From a virus: DNA of 23,463 nt. The stretch lies in the IMG/VR virus record IMGVR_UViG_3300034198_008282, positions 1-23,463 of that record; one strand, 5' to 3'. The notes beneath the pieces are model-generated. The model was not told where the DNA came from, ran no database searches, and was given only the letters and a program-made list of their open reading frames with translations. Positions 124 to 8,812 of the stretch are shown piece after piece; positions within the stretch are counted from its first letter, which is position 1, and each line of letters opens with the position of its first letter. Both the position numbers and the translations under genes were made by a program.

Positions 124-444
124 ATGGCACGCACAGTCATCCACGTGAACCAGCACATCATCCGATCCAACTACAAAAAGGGGGAGCGGCATCCGGTCTT
201 GACGGTCAAGAGCAAAGGCAGCAATATCTATGCCCACGAGGCCGTCATCAACGGGCCGTGCCGCATCGTGTATTCCCCGGACAAGCCGCTGCCGTGCGGC
301 GCACGGGTTTGGATTGAGACGGAATCTGCGGTCACACTAAACGTGGAGGAAGATCGTGAAGATCAGAGACAGGATCAAGGAGTTGAGGCGTGTCAAAGCC
401 AGCGAGTTGCTGCCGAATCCCAAGAACTGGAGGACGCACCCTAA
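124..444 (+). CDS. Small conserved hypothetical protein
   Basis: A 106-residue reading frame beginning MARTVIHVNQH. The first ~73 residues have the look of a small conserved family that I have seen in bacteria and phages without a known function: beta-rich, with the signature VVYSPDKPL-CGARVWIET here as RIVYSPDKPLPCGARVWIET. The last ~33 residues, after position 345, are very polar (EEDREDQRQDQ...) and are simply another frame of the start of the next gene, so the native protein may once have stopped near residue 74. ATG 124 was chosen because the conserved part starts there; an in-frame GTG at 88 is possible. Neither has a good SD. It overlaps the ParB-like gene by 89 bases, unusually long for this genome. 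Confidence 0.6.
   Translation: MARTVIHVNQHIIRSNYKKGERHPVLTVKSKGSNIYAHEAVINGPCRIVYSPDKPLPCGARVWIETESAVTLNVEEDREDQRQDQGVEACQSQRVAAESQELEDAP
335..346 (+). repeat. 12-base direct repeat, right copy
   Basis: Second exact copy of CACTAAACGTGG (first at 80-91). Its last two bases begin the GGAGGA SD sequence (345-350) of the ParB-like gene that starts at GTG 356. Confidence 0.45.
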
Positions 445-1009
445 GTCGCAGCAGGATGCCCTGCGGGGCGTGCTGTCGGAAGTCGGTTTTGCGGACGCTG
501 CGATTGCCCGGGAGTTGCCGGACGGGAGCCTCATGCTCATTGACGGACACCTCCGGGCGGAGACGGCGGCGGACGCCAACGTGCCCGTGCTTGTCCTTGA
601 CGTCACGGAGGCTGAGGCAGACAAACTGCTGGTCACTCTGGACCCGCTGGCTGCGATGGCCGACACGAATGCTGAGGCACTTGAGTCGGTCTTGGGGGAA
701 GTCGAGACAAACAGCGAGGCAGTGTCAGAGATGCTGTCCCGTCTCGCGCACCGGGCGGGCTTGTTCCTTGAGGGGGCCGGTCAGTCTGACGAGGCGGAGC
801 CGGGTGAGTCGGATGACGGACCGGCGGAGGAGGAGTCTGCTGAACCGGCCGGGGTTCGGATGGTTCAGTTGTTCCTTGATGAGACAAACATTGAGGAGTT
901 TCAGGACCGGACTGCCCGGTTGGCGGAGGAGTACGAAACCAGCAACCTGACCGACACGGTACTGGAGGCGGTGCGGCGTGCAAGTCTACACCTGTACGAC
1001 CAAGATTGA
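356..1009 (+). CDS. ParB-like (ParB/Srx fold) domain protein
   Basis: 217 residues. The N-terminal ~90 residues match a ParB/sulfiredoxin-fold domain: VKASELLPNPKNWRTHP (residues 13-29), then the signature LMLIDGHLRAE (about 59-69), then LVLDVTEAEADKLLVTLD (about 78-95), as in phage ParB-like nucleases and adaptor proteins. The second half (about 130-217) is acidic and low in complexity (DEAEPGESDDGPAEEESAEP), with a helical C-terminus. The GTG start at 356 has GGAGGA (345-350) five bases upstream. The 3' end overlaps the next gene by 32 bases. ParB-like proteins are known companions of phage base-modification operons (Iyer, Aravind and colleagues' comparative genomics), and this gene heads such a cassette. 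Whether it cuts DNA, hydrolyses CTP, or guides modification cannot be told from sequence. Confidence 0.85.
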   Translation: MKIRDRIKELRRVKASELLPNPKNWRTHPKSQQDALRGVLSEVGFADAAIARELPDGSLMLIDGHLRAETAADANVPVLVLDVTEAEADKLLVTLDPLAAMADTNAEALESVLGEVETNSEAVSEMLSRLAHRAGLFLEGAGQSDEAEPGESDDGPAEEESAEPAGVRMVQLFLDETNIEEFQDRTARLAEEYETSNLTDTVLEAVRRASLHLYDQD

Positions 1010-1856
1010 GGCGGATGACCTTGCGGGCGTCCACCTTGATGAATCCCACTACGACGTCTTGGTGGGAGGAGATGAGGCCGCGGACATCTTCAAGCCGGAC
1101 GGCACGCCGCTGGTTCGCTACCGCCCCGGGTGGTTTGACGCGGAGTTGTGCGCGTCGGTCCTGCCCGCCTGTCGCAAGGCTGCCAAGCCAACGCAGAACC
1201 GGGGCACAGCCGCCGGAGACATGGGCAACGGGGAGGAGAAGTTCAGACGGGCCAAGGACGGCAAGATCAGCCACACCAAACGGATCAAGCCGGTCAACAG
1301 CGGGATCATCGGCTACTTTGATCGCAGCGTCCGGACCCCGTACTGCCGCCAGACTTCATTCCTAATCAACTCCGCGGCACACTGGAGGCGGTTTCTGCCG
1401 TACATCGTCAAGGCCGATGAGGGGCTGAAGGCACTCATGCCTGACCGTTGGGAGGCTCAGCGGCAGTACGCTGACCGGACGGCGGAGGATTGGCTGATAC
1501 CGGAAAGCACGTTCACGACGGTGACCGTCAACCGCAACTTTGCGACCGCAACGCACAAGGATGCCGGTGACCTCAAGGCCGGTTTCGGTGTGCTTTCGTG
1601 CCTCCGCAACGACAAGTACGAGGGTGCCCACCTTTGTTTCCCGGCCTACCGGGTTGCCGTTGACCTTGGGCACGGCTGCCTCTGCCTTGCGGACGTCCAT
1701 GAGTGGCACGGCAACACCGCGTTCCGGCAGATCAAGGCCGGGTACGAGCGTGTCACGCTGGTGTTCTACTACCGTGAAAAAATGGTCCGCTGCCTGCCTG
1801 TCGCGGAGGAAGTCGAGTGGGCCAAGAACCGCCGCCGCGGGGAGCCGCTGAAATAG
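978..1856 (+). CDS. TET/JBP-type 2-oxoglutarate/Fe(II) DNA base dioxygenase
   Basis: 292 residues. The C-terminal half has the double-stranded beta-helix signature of TET/JBP enzymes, which oxidise the methyl of thymine or 5-methylcytosine in DNA. Visible residues: H193-x-D195 (TATHKDAGDLKAGFG) as iron ligands; GAHLCFPAYRVAVDLGHGCL (217-236); the distal histidine in HEWHGN (most likely H244); and R258 in ERVTLVFYYREKM, expected to bind 2-oxoglutarate. The N-terminal ~100 residues are a variable extension. The GTG at 978 has GGAGG (964-968) nine bases upstream, and the gene overlaps the ParB-like gene by 32 bases. Phage TET/JBP members are known to make hydroxymethylated bases that are then decorated further. 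The substrate here could be thymine or 5-methylcytosine; no methyltransferase or hydroxymethylase gene lies in the window. Family assignment is by motif recognition, not a database search. Confidence 0.85.
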   Translation: MQVYTCTTKIEADDLAGVHLDESHYDVLVGGDEAADIFKPDGTPLVRYRPGWFDAELCASVLPACRKAAKPTQNRGTAAGDMGNGEEKFRRAKDGKISHTKRIKPVNSGIIGYFDRSVRTPYCRQTSFLINSAAHWRRFLPYIVKADEGLKALMPDRWEAQRQYADRTAEDWLIPESTFTTVTVNRNFATATHKDAGDLKAGFGVLSCLRNDKYEGAHLCFPAYRVAVDLGHGCLCLADVHEWHGNTAFRQIKAGYERVTLVFYYREKMVRCLPVAEEVEWAKNRRRGEPLK

Positions 1857-1859
1857 CGA

Positions 1860-1907
1860 CCCCCCCGGAGTTGTGAGATTCAAGTTTCAAACAAGTGTTT
1901 TCGTGGG
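1860..1907 (+). repeat. C-run/18-mer dispersed repeat, copy 1
   Basis: Seven Cs, then GGAGTTGTGAGATTCAAG, then a short hairpin-capable segment (AAAC-AAGT-GTTT) and CGTGGG. It fills nearly all of the 58-base gap between the TET/JBP gene and the next gene, the largest gap in the left operon. Its 3' end merges into GGGAGA (1905-1910), the likely SD for GTG 1915. Other copies: 8690-8737, 8787-8812 and, inverted, 23377-23424. Confidence 0.85.
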
Positions 1908-1914
1908 AGATAGC

Positions 1915-2943
1915 GTGGTAGCGGACTGGAGGCTGAACCGCCGTGAGGGGTTTGACCTGTTCTACCGGTTCCACTGCGAGAGCAACGATTGCTCCCCGGA
2001 CTTGGCGGTTGAGCGGTGGATGGCCGATGAGGGCGGGTTTGACTTTGAGAAGCGTTGCGTCATGGCACTTTTCCATGGAGCAACCTACGCTGGCCCGTGT
2101 GAGTCGATGTTCGCAGACCGGTTCCCGCGTCTCACCTCTGACGTTTCGGGGCTGGTCGCATTCTTCAACCGGGAGAAGCGGCGGCTGCTGTTCAGCCCCG
2201 ACTGCAAGTATCGCAAGATGGTTTTCCCGCGGTTCCTTGAGTCGGTCGGGCAGTCGGTCGCGGCATACGGCACGCTGGGCAAGTTCATCACGGATTGCTT
2301 TGGCTCCGCGGACCCCAAGGTGAACTATCTGCGGCTCAAGGCTCAATGCCAGTCCGTCTGGTACCACTGGGGCAGGATGGGGCACTGGTGTTTCTCTGAG
2401 GCGTTGGCGCGGCTGGTGGACGCCCCGATAGAGGCGGCTGACATGGAGTTCAGCGACGGGGCCAGCCACCGGGCCGGGTGGGCTTTCTGCATCGGGCGCG
2501 ATGACCTGACGGGTGATCGCGTCTCCGCCGCGGACGTCCGGATGCTTGAGCGGACGGCCGCGGAGTACCTGAGCGGTCTTGACTTCCCGCGGGCTGACCG
2601 GTTCACTCTTGAAACCGCATGCTGCAACTACAAAAGGCAGCACCGCGGGAGTCGGTACGGCGGCTGCTACATTGACGAGCAGTACGCTGAGACGGTCCAG
2701 ATGATGACCGACTGGCCTGAGTACGGATGGCTTTGGGAGAAGTACCTTGAGGGGCGGCTGGCGGTGCTTCCGCGGTCGCTGCTGTTTGAGTTGAGCGGGG
2801 AGAAGCCTCCCGCATATCGCAAGGACTGGAACCGGTCGATGCAGAAGTACGGCCGGATGCCGCGGGTTGAGGCTTGGGCGTCCGGGGAGGCCCAACGCTG
2901 GTGCAAACTGGAGGACGTTTGTGGACGCCAAGCAAGTCAATAA
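1915..2943 (+). CDS. 5-hmdU DNA kinase helical / aGPT-Pplase-type hypermodification protein
   Basis: 342 residues, predicted mostly helical. I recognise the pattern of the phage family annotated as 5-hmdU DNA kinase helical domain or alpha-glutamyl/putrescinyl thymine pyrophosphorylase: RREGFDLFYRFH (about 9-20), the helix with ALFHGATYAGP (51-61), DGASHRAGWAFCIGRDD (181-197), ETACCNYKRQ (233-242) and GGCYIDEQ (249-256). Family members act on 5-hydroxymethylpyrimidine-containing DNA, in steps after base phosphorylation that attach an amine or amino acid; which step this protein performs is not settled by sequence. GTG 1915 is preferred: GGGAGA ends four bases upstream. An upstream in-frame GTG at 1873 lies inside the dispersed repeat with an SD too close to use. 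It is sandwiched between a base oxidase and a P-loop kinase, which supports the role. Confidence 0.72.
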   Translation: MVADWRLNRREGFDLFYRFHCESNDCSPDLAVERWMADEGGFDFEKRCVMALFHGATYAGPCESMFADRFPRLTSDVSGLVAFFNREKRRLLFSPDCKYRKMVFPRFLESVGQSVAAYGTLGKFITDCFGSADPKVNYLRLKAQCQSVWYHWGRMGHWCFSEALARLVDAPIEAADMEFSDGASHRAGWAFCIGRDDLTGDRVSAADVRMLERTAAEYLSGLDFPRADRFTLETACCNYKRQHRGSRYGGCYIDEQYAETVQMMTDWPEYGWLWEKYLEGRLAVLPRSLLFELSGEKPPAYRKDWNRSMQKYGRMPRVEAWASGEAQRWCKLEDVCGRQASQ

Positions 2944-4000
2944 GTTCATCGCCCAATACGCCAAGGGCTACCAAGGCGGTCAGTTTGCCGCACCGCTGCC
3001 CAAGGAGTTGGAGGCCAATCCGGGTGCCGTGCTGGAGGCGGAGGGGTTTGTTGCGATCCGCAAGACGCTGCCGCGGGGTTCCTCCCGCAAGGACTTCACC
3101 GGGCGGGCGTACAAACTCCCGCCGGGGGCGTCCGTCCTGACTCACGTTGCCCGGGAGCCGGGTGCCGCGCTTCCCCGCTGGGTTGGGCATTACAACTACG
3201 TCTACACCTACGTTGAGGACGGTGAGTTGTCTGACCAGATGCGTCAGGCCGGTTGGAAGGTCAAGGCATACCGCGTCTCCGCCACGAGTGAAATCATGGC
3301 TTGCTGGTGCCGCGCGGAGGAGCCGCCGCTGCCGATCAGCGTGGCGGACTTGAGGACGTTCACCCGCCTGAACATTCCCGTGCCCGTCGCTGCGTTTGAG
3401 GCGGAGTTGGCATCGGTGGACTGCTGGCACGATGACTTCCCCTATTACTCTGACGGAACGTGGTCAGCCGTGTCGATACGGGGCTACAAGCAGGATGACC
3501 CAAGGTGGGGCGTGAAGCCGTCAGAGATGCCGCAGAAGTGGCGTGACGAGCATCCTGATGACCTCAACCTGAAGTGCGACTGGACCGTGCTTGCAAGCCG
3601 CACCCCCAAAATCCGCCAGTGGGTTGAGCAGACGGTCGGGGGCGGGGAAGTCGAGCGGGTCAGGCTGTTCAGGATGACCGCCCGGAAAGACAAGGACGGG
3701 AAACTGGGGCGGCACAGCGACATTCAGGATCAGGACGTTGGGACGCGGGACGGGATGCTTGCCCGTCTCCACATACCGATCAGGACTCACCCTGACATCA
3801 AGATGACCGTTTGGGACTTGGACGGCAACGAGCGTTCCGCCCATCTCGCTGCCGGGGGCGTCTACTACCTTGACACCCGAAAGCCGCACAGCGTCCAGAA
3901 CAAATCAGACGTTGACCGCGTTCATTTGGTGGTCGATTTGGTGGTCACGCCAGAGGTTCGGGTCAGGCTGATGGAGTCAGAGGAGGTGGCAGCGGGATGA
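2921..4000 (+). CDS. Asp/Asn beta-hydroxylase-like 2OG dioxygenase with unassigned N-terminal domain
   Basis: 359 residues. Residues from about 155 to 359 match the aspartyl/asparaginyl beta-hydroxylase branch of Fe(II)/2-oxoglutarate oxygenases: WHDDFPYYSDGTWSAVSIRG, then GRHSDIQDQD with H265-x-D267, RLHIPIRTHPD, YYLDTRKPHSVQN with distal H323, and R333 in DRVHLVVDL for 2-oxoglutarate. The first ~140 residues (FVAIRKTLP..., GHYNYVYTYVEDGEL, SATSEIMACWCRAEE) form a separate domain that I do not recognise. GTG 2921 is chosen because GGAGGA (2910-2915) sits five bases upstream; an in-frame ATG at 2867 lies deep inside the preceding gene. It overlaps that gene by 23 bases and its stop overlaps the kinase start (ATGA). 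It likely tailors either the modified base or a protein partner; the substrate is unknown. Confidence 0.75.
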   Translation: MDAKQVNKFIAQYAKGYQGGQFAAPLPKELEANPGAVLEAEGFVAIRKTLPRGSSRKDFTGRAYKLPPGASVLTHVAREPGAALPRWVGHYNYVYTYVEDGELSDQMRQAGWKVKAYRVSATSEIMACWCRAEEPPLPISVADLRTFTRLNIPVPVAAFEAELASVDCWHDDFPYYSDGTWSAVSIRGYKQDDPRWGVKPSEMPQKWRDEHPDDLNLKCDWTVLASRTPKIRQWVEQTVGGGEVERVRLFRMTARKDKDGKLGRHSDIQDQDVGTRDGMLARLHIPIRTHPDIKMTVWDLDGNERSAHLAAGGVYYLDTRKPHSVQNKSDVDRVHLVVDLVVTPEVRVRLMESEEVAAG

Positions 4001-4560
4001 AAACTCTCACGTACATCATCGGCCAGCCCGGGGCCGGAAAGACAACGCTGATGAACGCCATCTGCAAGGGGGCGTCAACCCTGTACACCGCGGACTCCCC
4101 GGTTTCTCACCGCGGCATGAAGGGTCCGCACGGCCTGTTCAGCGTGCTTGGCAAGGACCGGCACCCGTTCGGCGGGACGGATACGATGTCACACGCGGCC
4201 GCGGGAAACTGCGAGGCATGGGTTGAGGAGTTGTCGCGATGTGCGGCGGGCGGAGTCGTGTTTGGGGAAGGGGACAGGCTGGCCACCAAAAGGTTCCTTG
4301 CCGCTGCGCGGGTCCACTACCGCGTGCTGGTGTTCTACCTTGACCTTGACGATGCGGTTGCCGCGGAGCGGAGGGCCGTCAGGGCTGAGGAACACCGCCT
4401 GAAGCAACAGAGTGCGTCTTGGGTCAAAGGCCGCGTCACCAAGCACGCGAACTTGGCCTTGGCAGAGTCGGCCGTTAGGCTTGATGCTAGGCAGCCTGCT
4501 GAGGAGAACGCACTGCTGGTGTGGAGTGAGGTCAATGGGAAAACGCGGACCACCGCCTGA
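3997..4560 (+). CDS. P-loop nucleotide/base kinase, probable hydroxymethyl-base DNA kinase
   Basis: 187 residues. Walker A is G9-QPGAGKT near the N-terminus. A conserved GTD (60-62) follows in FGGTDTMSHAA, then VVFGEGDRLA (87-96) as the Walker B/core strand region, then LVFYLDLDDAVAAERRAVR and a basic lid QQSASWVKGRVTKH (127-140). This matches the small phage kinases that phosphorylate 5-hydroxymethyl pyrimidines in DNA so that the phosphate can be displaced later. ATG 3997 overlaps the previous stop, so translation is probably coupled. The 3' end overlaps the small terminase gene by 26 bases. A generic phage nucleotide kinase is the alternative, but the flanking hypermodification genes favour a DNA base kinase. 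Confidence 0.75.
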   Translation: MKTLTYIIGQPGAGKTTLMNAICKGASTLYTADSPVSHRGMKGPHGLFSVLGKDRHPFGGTDTMSHAAAGNCEAWVEELSRCAAGGVVFGEGDRLATKRFLAAARVHYRVLVFYLDLDDAVAAERRAVRAEEHRLKQQSASWVKGRVTKHANLALAESAVRLDARQPAEENALLVWSEVNGKTRTTA

Positions 4561-5038
4561 GCCGTCAATCCTGCGGTACATACGTGGGAACCCAAGCAAG
4601 ACTCCGCTCAACCCCGGGGAGCCAACCCCGGACTTGATGCCGCAGGGGGCGGAGCCTCCGGCTTGGCTTGAAGGCGTTGCCCTTGAGAAGTGGCACGAGA
4701 TTGTCCCGGTCTTGGCCGCGATGCGGGTGATGACCGTGGCGGACCGGGAGACGATTGCGAGGTACTGCGCCCTGTGGGAGCAGTGGAAGAAAAACTACGA
4801 CATCGTGAAACGCGGGGCGGACGTCATCATCGGCCGGGACGCGGCCGGTGAAGTCAAGTACATGCAAGTCACCCCGTATGCCAGCCAGATGACCAAGATT
4901 GCTACGCTTTTGCTCCGGATTGAGCAGGAGTTTGGCCTAACGCCAAGCAGCCGGTCTCAAGTCACAATCCACGGGAGCAGAGACGATGACCCACTTGCCA
5001 CGTTTGCCCAAAAGCGCAGCCGCGGAACAGGGGCTTGA
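4535..5038 (+). CDS. terS: Terminase small subunit, P27 family
   Basis: 167 residues beginning MGKRGPPPEPSILRYIRGNP, the usual N-terminus of P27-type small terminases (K-RGP-P-P--L-LLRGNP), followed by PPAWLEGVALEKWHEIVPVL, ADRETIARYCALWEQW and a C-terminal helix LLRIEQEFGLTPSSRSQV. It recognises phage DNA and feeds it to the large subunit. ATG 4535 starts the conserved block; longer in-frame extension upstream would run within the kinase gene and has no family similarity. It overlaps both neighbours, consistent with a tightly coupled operon that links the modification cassette to packaging. Confidence 0.9.
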   Translation: MGKRGPPPEPSILRYIRGNPSKTPLNPGEPTPDLMPQGAEPPAWLEGVALEKWHEIVPVLAAMRVMTVADRETIARYCALWEQWKKNYDIVKRGADVIIGRDAAGEVKYMQVTPYASQMTKIATLLLRIEQEFGLTPSSRSQVTIHGSRDDDPLATFAQKRSRGTGA

Positions 5039-6593: not shown

Positions 6594-8689
6594 TCGCCAA
6601 CAGCAGGATTTTGTGGCTCCCCAACGGCTATGAGGAGCGTGGGGATTTTGCTTGGGACGATGCCCCGTCAGGGTCAAGCCGGAATCCCGCCGGGGTTCGG
6701 ATTGACCCTGACACAGCCGTGCAATCGACGGTCGTGCTGGCCTGTGCAAGAGTGCTTGCGGAGTCGATTGCTTCCCTGCCTCTGCACCTTTACCGGCGGA
6801 CCACGGACCGGTCCGGCAAGGCAATCGCCCGGGAACACCCGCTGTACCGCCGTCTGCACACCGCACCCAACTCTTGGCAGACCAGTTTTGAGTGGCGTGA
6901 GCAGCAAGTTTTCTGGCTGGCACTTTGGGGCAACTCGTACAACGAAATCCGCCCGGGTGCCGCCGGAGCCGTGGATGAACTTTGGCCGCTGCACCCGTCT
7001 CGCATGAAGGTGGAGCGCGTCGAAAACGGCAGGCTCCGCTACCGGTTCCGCGACGAAAAGGGCACTGAGGTCATCTACAGCCAAGACCAGATCATGCACA
7101 TTCGCTGGATGAGCGATGACGGGATCAACGGCATGGTGCCTGTGGAACTGGCCCGGGACGCCATTGGTCTGGCCCGCGCCTGCGAGATTCATGGCGCCCG
7201 GTTTTTTGGCAACGGTGCCCGCCCGGGGGTCGTGCTTGTCACGCCCAACGAGATGAAGTCAGAGGCCGCTGCCCAACTCCGCGACAACTGGGAGCGGATG
7301 CACCGCGGGGCAGACCGCTCCAACCGGACTGCGGTACTCACGGGCGGTCTGGACGCCAAGGAGTTGACCGGCGCAAGCAACCAAGAGGCTCAGTTCCTTG
7401 AGACGCGACGATTCCAGATTGAGGAAATCTGCCGCATTTTCAGGGTTCCCCCACATTTGGTCGGTGACCTGACGCGGTCAAGTTTCAGCAACATTGAGCA
7501 GCAGAGTATTGACTTCGTGCAGCATTCGCTGCTGCCTTGGCTCCGCCGATTTGAGACTGCGTTTGAGCGGGACTTGATCACGGATGAGACGTTGTTCGCG
7601 GAGTTTGACACCCGCGGGTTCCTCCGCGGGGACGCCACGATGCGTGCCGCGTACTACCAGACCCTCTACAACCTTGGCGTTGCGTCGATCAACGAAATAC
7701 GCGGGTGGGAAAGCCTTGACCCCGTGGAGGGCGGGGACGAAAGGTTTGTGCAACTCAACATGCAGACCCTCACCGCCGCTACGGCTGCGGCTGCCCCCCC
7801 GCCCCCGCCCCCGCCCCCGGAGCCTGCCCCGGAGGCACCACCGGAGGAAGCATCGTCACGGTCGGACAGCCCGGTTGTCGTTGAGGAGGTTTCCATCCCG
7901 TCCCTCAACGGCGGGCAAGTGTCCAGTCTGCTTGAGATTTTGAGTCAGGTGACCGCGGGCAACCTGAGCGGAGACGGAGCCAAGGCAATCATCGCGGCTG
8001 CGTTCCCAAGCATCAGCGGCAGCCTAATCGAACAGATTGTGGCGGGGCTTCCGGTTTCCCCGAATCAGGGGCTGGCGACCCGCGCACGCCCCGGCACTGT
8101 GTCCACCGGGGACTTTGTTTCTTGGGGCGCGAATGACAGCCGCGCCCGCGGGAAAATCCAGAAAATCGTGACCGATGGCAAGATCAACGTGCCTGATTCA
8201 TCGTTTGAGATTGAGGGCACAGAGGATGACCCCGCCGCGCTGATTGCCGTGTACGAGAAAGTCGAGGGAGGCTGGCGAGAGACGGACACGAAAGTGGCAC
8301 ACAAGGTTTCAACGCTGACCAAGATTGACCCGCTGGAGATTGCGACGGACTCCGGGCGCAAGATGATGCGGGCGGCTTTGATGATCGCTAAGGAGTCGCG
8401 GTCCCTGACCGTGTCGATTGACTTTGACGGGACGTTTGCGGCGGACCCCGCGATGTGGACTGAGTTTGTCCAGTCATGCCGTGAGGCGGGCAACAACGTC
8501 CTAATGATCACGAGGCGGGAGGACACCCCGGAGAACCGGGAACACGTGAGCCGCGTGCTGGGGGAGGCGGAGCCGCTGCTGGACACGATCATCTTCGCGG
8601 GTCTTGGCAAGGCCAAGAAGCAGGCCGCGGAGGAGGCCGGAGTCAGCGTTGACATTTGGATTGACGATGTGCCAAGCACTGTCGGCTGA
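6590..8689 (+). CDS. Portal protein with Tudor/KOW-like and HAD phosphatase-like C-terminal extension
   Basis: 699 residues, far longer than a usual HK97 portal (about 400-450). Residues 1-390 are a standard portal: AVQSTVVLACARVLAESIASLPLHL (43-67), FFGNGARPGVVL (205-216), RFQIEEICRIFRVPPHLVGD (284-303), NIEQQSIDFVQHSLLPWL (301-318). Then comes a proline-rich linker (403-420, eight Pro in a row), a helical stretch (434-490), a small beta segment GDFVSWGANDSRARGKIQKI (507-526) that resembles Tudor/KOW-like domains, and a C-terminal HAD-superfamily domain. The HAD motifs are D611-F-D613-G-T, T641 in LMITRR, K674 and D692-D693 in IWIDDVP. No frameshift is needed. The extension could be internal cargo, an enzyme displayed at the portal, or a part cleaved off by the protease. 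Confidence 0.92.
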   Translation: MIANSRILWLPNGYEERGDFAWDDAPSGSSRNPAGVRIDPDTAVQSTVVLACARVLAESIASLPLHLYRRTTDRSGKAIAREHPLYRRLHTAPNSWQTSFEWREQQVFWLALWGNSYNEIRPGAAGAVDELWPLHPSRMKVERVENGRLRYRFRDEKGTEVIYSQDQIMHIRWMSDDGINGMVPVELARDAIGLARACEIHGARFFGNGARPGVVLVTPNEMKSEAAAQLRDNWERMHRGADRSNRTAVLTGGLDAKELTGASNQEAQFLETRRFQIEEICRIFRVPPHLVGDLTRSSFSNIEQQSIDFVQHSLLPWLRRFETAFERDLITDETLFAEFDTRGFLRGDATMRAAYYQTLYNLGVASINEIRGWESLDPVEGGDERFVQLNMQTLTAATAAAAPPPPPPPPEPAPEAPPEEASSRSDSPVVVEEVSIPSLNGGQVSSLLEILSQVTAGNLSGDGAKAIIAAAFPSISGSLIEQIVAGLPVSPNQGLATRARPGTVSTGDFVSWGANDSRARGKIQKIVTDGKINVPDSSFEIEGTEDDPAALIAVYEKVEGGWRETDTKVAHKVSTLTKIDPLEIATDSGRKMMRAALMIAKESRSLTVSIDFDGTFAADPAMWTEFVQSCREAGNNVLMITRREDTPENREHVSRVLGEAEPLLDTIIFAGLGKAKKQAAEEAGVSVDIWIDDVPSTVG

Positions 8690-8737
8690 CCCCCCCGGAG
8701 TTGTGAGATTCAAGTTTGAGACAAGTGTTTCCGTGGG
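8690..8737 (+). repeat. C-run/18-mer dispersed repeat, copy 2
   Basis: Starts at the base after the portal stop: seven Cs, GGAGTTGTGAGATTCAAG, then GAGAC-AAGT-GTTTC, which pairs as a five-base stem with one G-T wobble, then CGTGGG. A second hairpin is possible: GTTTCC 8727-8732 with GGAAAC 8738-8743. A 33-codon frame (8703-8804) runs through it but looks incidental. Confidence 0.88.
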
Positions 8738-8786
8738 GGAAACGCTGGTTTTGAAAAACGAAACAGAGAGTGCCGCGGTGGACTTG

Positions 8787-8812
8787 CCCCCCCCGGAGTT
8801 GTGAGATTCAAG
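8787..8812 (+). repeat. C-run/18-mer dispersed repeat, copy 3 (truncated)
   Basis: Eight Cs followed by the identical 18-mer, but the hairpin part is missing: the repeat stops at AAG and is followed directly by the protease ATG (8814). It lies 97 bases after copy 2, giving a near-tandem pair in the portal-protease gap. GGAG at 8795-8798 is 15 bases from the ATG, too far for an ideal SD. Confidence 0.88.

Follow-up and report, generated by a model that had tools for sequence, protein, structure and literature searches.

What would a tailed phage make of its DNA with a TET/JBP-type dioxygenase, a second dioxygenase of a different kind, a candidate amino acid transferase and a kinase encoded side by side, and on which base would such a pathway begin? 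The question is raised by the left end of the window, as we call the whole stretch of DNA analysed, a 23,463-base linear IMG/VR fragment of a tailed phage in which terminase, protease and capsid genes come after the genes of interest. A sequence-only reading had described four adjacent genes of the TET, aGPT-Pplase, dioxygenase and kinase kinds, and this description was, with refinements, confirmed by the open reading frames, which lie on one strand, close-set or overlapping, by Pfam scores that all exceed the curated cut-offs, and by intact catalytic residues. The contig begins 355 bases ahead of a ParB-like gene, which stands at the corresponding place in relatives and complete phages alike and belongs to the cassette unit. 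The genes are as follows.

356-1009, plus strand: ParB-like protein (PHROG ParB family, 7.9e-11), the first cassette gene in most relatives
978-1856, plus strand: TET/JBP-family 2OG-Fe(II) dioxygenase (PF12851, 6.5e-25)
1915-2943, plus strand: predicted ADDT (aGPT-Pplase2 type) amino acid:DNA transferase (PF18724, 2.8e-14)
2921-4000, plus strand: second 2OG-Fe(II) dioxygenase, amino-acid-hydroxylase type (PF05118, Asp_Arg_Hydrox, 8.7e-7)
3997-4560, plus strand: P-loop nucleotide kinase 3 family protein (Ploopntkinase3; PF18751, 4.1e-21)
4535-5038, plus strand: terminase small subunit (PF05119, 3.3e-20), separate from the kinase and marking the cassette boundary

Because the four proteins score above the Pfam cut-offs in families of matching chemistry, the genes probably form a post-replicative DNA hypermodification cassette, in which the TET, kinase, ADDT and hydroxylase steps would follow one another. 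The TET would hydroxylate a pyrimidine 5-methyl group already present in the phage DNA, either that of thymine or that of 5-methylcytosine made by a methyltransferase encoded off the contig, and the kinase is predicted to phosphorylate the resulting 5-hydroxymethyl group. In the ADDT step an amino acid, joined through its amino group, would then take the place of the phosphate, and the second dioxygenase, which is proline-hydroxylase-like, would hydroxylate the attached, or about-to-be-attached, amino acid. The product would be a bulky hydroxy-amino-acid-bearing pyrimidine, which would hinder restriction enzymes. What the sequences show directly is the family assignments, the gene order and their conservation, from which the individual reactions, their succession, the amino acid and the base are predicted. 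We give an even chance to a product of this kind, whether an aminoacyl cytosine derived from TET-made 5-hydroxymethylcytosine or a thymine adduct that starts with direct oxidation of T by a phage enzyme; to our knowledge, no phage carries such a hydroxylated amino-acid pyrimidine adduct.

Other features of the window

The repeat CCCCCCCGGAGTTGTGAGATTCAAG... is found at 1857-1919, 8687-8749 and 8785-8812, and on the minus strand at 23370-23428, and comes after the stop codons of the TET and portal genes. No exact copy of it was found among other viral contigs, and one relative (L005) carries no repeat insertion between TET and ADDT. Toward the other end of the window, the protein at 22412-22894 scores 24.6 bits against PF07659 ('Nucleotide modification associated domain 1'), just below the cut-off of 25, and adjoins a metallophosphoesterase at 21558-22415. 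The protein at 12235-12966 matches phrog_1574 weakly. L012 encodes a strong member of this family shortly downstream of ADDT-kinase, but the two proteins gave no direct alignment.

Recurrence of the gene set

Searches with the ADDT recovered 18 viral loci, while those with the hydroxylase recovered 14 loci, amounting to 12 lineages once near-identical copies were merged. The gene order of the window thus recurs in 12 further viral lineages, including the cultured mycobacteriophage LilMcDreamy, which argues that the arrangement is not due to chance. Each locus found has the kinase after the hydroxylase, and the ADDT before the hydroxylase in every case but one, whose contig is cut. Across TET loci more broadly, the kinase is present wherever TET and ADDT occur together with enough sequence (58 of 58) and in 8 of the 31 TET loci that lack ADDT (Fisher p 7e-15, with loci taken as independent and their relatedness ignored). 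None of the 14 loci with glycosyltransferase-like genes has it, and sugar transfer requires no phosphate leaving group. TET and kinase also occur without a neighbouring ADDT or glycosyltransferase (L049, L050, L084, L094, L096, L105, L106 and L026), and such cassettes perhaps leave a phosphorylated base.

The hydroxylases of the window and LilMcDreamy share 44% identity, compared with 23% for the TET and 25% for the ADDT, which suggests that the hydroxylase has either moved between cassettes or evolves more slowly; under both readings, it is tied to cassettes of this kind.

TET, transferase and kinase

The TET protein scores 87.7 bits against PF12851 (Tet_JBP; cut-off 34.9), and its H193, D195, H244 and R258, corresponding to the HxD...H iron ligands and the 2OG-binding Arg, are invariant and align with TET2. 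Profile and catalytic residues together place it in the PF12851 family. D198, which was compared with the cytosine versus thymine question in mind, is likewise invariant.

The product of 1915-2943 had been described as a '5-hmdU kinase helical/aGPT-Pplase-type' protein. The aGPT-Pplase half of that description stands, with 53.8 bits against PF18724 (cut-off 26.2) and homology to the Kuttervirus (ViI-like) aGPT-Pplase2 protein; the kinase helical domain was ruled out, as only ADDT scores in Pfam. The AlphaFold model is of moderate quality (mean pLDDT 66), and it leads to transferases and not to an unrelated fold family: its BFVD matches are proteins named ADDT, and its only credible PDB match is 8z2m (probability 1.0, E 0.05), the PaMx11 5-phosphomethyl-dU (5-PmdU) glycinyltransferase, whose substrate is 5-phosphomethyl-dU according to the PDB title. 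This match fits a sequence of oxidation, phosphorylation and then displacement by an amino acid. By profile and family fold, the protein is assigned to PF18724, with 5-phosphomethyl pyrimidine DNA as the predicted acceptor of the amino acid. In one relative (L032:2536-4455), TET and ADDT are naturally fused in a single 639-residue protein.

The kinase, with GQPGAGKT as its Walker A motif, has PF18751 as its best family, and PF18747, to which the Kuttervirus kinase belongs, is not among the matches listed; the protein thus appears to lie outside the 5-hmdU kinase family of ViI-like phages. The family is not tied exclusively to hydroxymethyl groups, because PF18751 kinases also stand next to the terminase in TallGrassMM, which has no TET-ADDT cassette there, and in Saguaro, beside a deazaguanine gene set. 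In these Bclasvirinae (Saguaro, L125; TallGrassMM, L123) either ParB with the 7-deazaguanine genes stands ahead of the terminase or the position is empty; the PF18751 kinase is retained, under the name of terminase small subunit or adenylate kinase. It is conceivable that the kinase serves in packaging, being retained beside the terminase, with the other cassette proteins working without phosphate activation, and the terminase small subunit annotations of PF18751 genes that precede TerL in phages without a TET-ADDT cassette there speak for this. We consider it improbable, however, given that a separate small terminase (PF05119) is encoded in the window, that the kinase accompanies ADDT in 58 of 58 loci yet is missing from the glycosyltransferase-type cassettes, and that the solved transferase takes a phosphomethyl base.

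The second dioxygenase

The start of the second dioxygenase was corrected to GTG 2921, behind a GGAGG box, giving a product of 359 aa; both start and box are conserved in four relatives. The protein scores 29.3 bits against PF05118 (cut-off 22.6), although proline hydroxylases are closer by fold, and its HxD...H...R motif is invariant in 12 sequences. By sequence it matches L-proline cis-4-hydroxylase, which also heads the fold ranking obtained with a good model (mean pLDDT 91), followed by a nucleoside antibiotic pathway hydroxylase, proline 3-hydroxylase and AspH. The N-terminal half (about residues 1-200) has no family match, and bacterial genomes searched for the hydroxylase yielded distant partial matches only (25-37%) and no close relative. 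The second oxidation, previously raised as a possibility, gains support from this resemblance to amino-acid hydroxylases in both sequence and fold.

The occupants of the same slot elsewhere provide a setting for this step. Reprobate has an FAD oxidoreductase between ADDT and kinase, three IMG/VR loci have a protein there without a Pfam match whose N-terminus was read as dinucleotide-binding-like, and acetyltransferase and amidotransferase genes are present in other cassettes. In thymidine hypermodification, enzymes of such kinds reportedly tailor the amino acid once it has been appended (Lee et al., 2022). Hydroxylation of the appended amino acid would be the simplest reading of the second dioxygenase. 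We consider it less probable that the enzyme uses an amino acid not yet transferred, or that it modifies the linker or the base; its closest solved relatives are proline hydroxylases of free amino acids, but it is tied to a DNA-acting ADDT in the loci found, and its N-terminal half could bind DNA. The amino-acid-hydroxylating step looks new, the rest of the cassette being of a known kind, and no mention of a hydroxylase in such cassettes was found in the literature searched, an incomplete set that lacks the field's main papers.

Thymine or cytosine as the target base

The sequence-only reading saw a hypermodification cassette that starts with a TET and proceeds through kinase and transferase steps, which is upheld here; its choice of thymine as the target is not established, and we regard thymine and cytosine as about even. 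In kinetoplastids, JBP oxidises T directly to 5-hydroxymethyluracil, and a phage TET doing the same would replace the dUMP hydroxymethylase of thymidine-hypermodifying phages, a route that we judge as likely to be right as wrong. As had been noted, no dUMP hydroxymethylase, the marker of the classical pathway (PF00303), is visible in the window, itself a fragment, and none was found in 18 related records or in six complete TET phages, three of them with TET-ADDT-kinase; enzymes of PF00145 are absent from the same set. PF01555 is absent from the window and from four of the six complete phages (LilMcDreamy, Reprobate, LittleMunchkin and Terij), such that the complete genome of LilMcDreamy lacks all three families, and a recognisable C5-methyltransferase occurs in only 5 of 45 other contigs. 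The 5-phosphomethyl-dU substrate named for 8z2m also favours thymine. However, absence in the window is read from a fragment, the TET and ADDT of LilMcDreamy are only 23-25% identical to those of the window, and many LilMcDreamy genes are hypothetical.

The alternative, to which we assign a nearly even chance, is that a methyltransferase provides 5-methylcytosine, the TET converts it to 5-hydroxymethylcytosine, and an amino-acid-bearing cytosine results from the action of the kinase, ADDT and hydroxylase. The ADDT of the window falls within a clade in which most of the other cassettes encode a PF01555-like methyltransferase; this has a conserved PC dipeptide, within SPPC or GTPC, at a position that is aromatic in N4/N6 methyltransferases. 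SPPC is the motif of CmoX, a DNA cytosine C5-carboxymethyltransferase (PMC12783734), and the SPPC/GTPC proteins, putative methyltransferases, are possibly C5 enzymes; examples lie between TET and ADDT at L009:9316-9978, with its relatives, and at L058:1687-2358. In G027, whose TET is 65% identical to that of the window, a PPCQ-type C5-methyltransferase is encoded on the ParB strand, about 5.5 kb upstream of that gene, a single case in the only close relative found with that much sequence upstream of ParB, and the region corresponds to sequence beyond the left end of the window. A C5-methyltransferase also lies about 10 kb downstream of one hydroxylase cassette (L039). Against this, no C5-methyltransferase was found in the window fragment or in complete LilMcDreamy, and the G027 cassette differs in having radical-SAM-like and glycosyltransferase-like genes. 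Absence of PF00145 was dropped as proof of thymine once the PC-motif methyltransferases and the G027 C5-methyltransferase had been found. The 5-methylcytosine route fits as well, given the G027 C5-methyltransferase and the position of the window ADDT in the clade associated with PC-motif methyltransferases. With 355 bases ahead of ParB, the window would not reach such an upstream methyltransferase. The question is nevertheless testable for such TET cassettes in a phage growing on M. smegmatis, and, were cytosine the target, this route of amino-acid hypermodification would reach beyond thymine.

Comparison with known systems

In thymidine hypermodification as Lee et al. are said to have described it in 2018 and 2022 for ViI, M6 and PaMx11, a hydroxymethyl pyrimidine is processed by a kinase, an aGPT/ADDT transferase and enzymes that tailor the amino acid, and these phages reportedly start from a dUMP hydroxymethylase. 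The window cassette instead starts with a TET and has a kinase of another family than that of Kuttervirus. A TET start is shared by phages with a TET-associated glycosyltransferase (TAGT, PF20691), which mostly have ParB as well and often place these genes near the terminase, yet in these sugar transfer replaces phosphate and amino acid and there is no kinase. The phage hydroxylase, which carries HxD...H...R, has its catalytic domain fold in common with L-proline cis-4-hydroxylase (4p7w) and proline 3-hydroxylase (1e5r), but it has the extra N-terminal half, and its substrate class is predicted by likeness.

The four-gene combination proves less novel than the earlier reader took it to be. Genes 1-5 of LilMcDreamy (NC_051582) correspond to the five cassette genes of the window in the same order, ahead of TerL, under misleading names (queuine tRNA-ribosyltransferase, hypotheticals and terminase small subunit), and the present assignments offer better names for genes misannotated in cultured mycobacteriophages. 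For Rhodococcus phage Tonitrus, a genome note of 2025 put forward a thymidine hypermodification system made up of ParB, Tet-like, aGPT-Pplase2 and 5-hmU kinase genes (PMC11955845), so that the cassette core of ParB, TET, transferase and kinase is not new. Tonitrus has a ParB-like gene, a Tet/JBP protein, an aGPT-Pplase2 protein and a 5-hmU DNA kinase among its first five genes, but the fifth is termed hypothetical and no amino-acid hydroxylase is named (PMC11955845). The new part is the hydroxylase slot, which adds a predicted 2OG amino-acid hydroxylase to the enzymes that reshape phage DNA bases.
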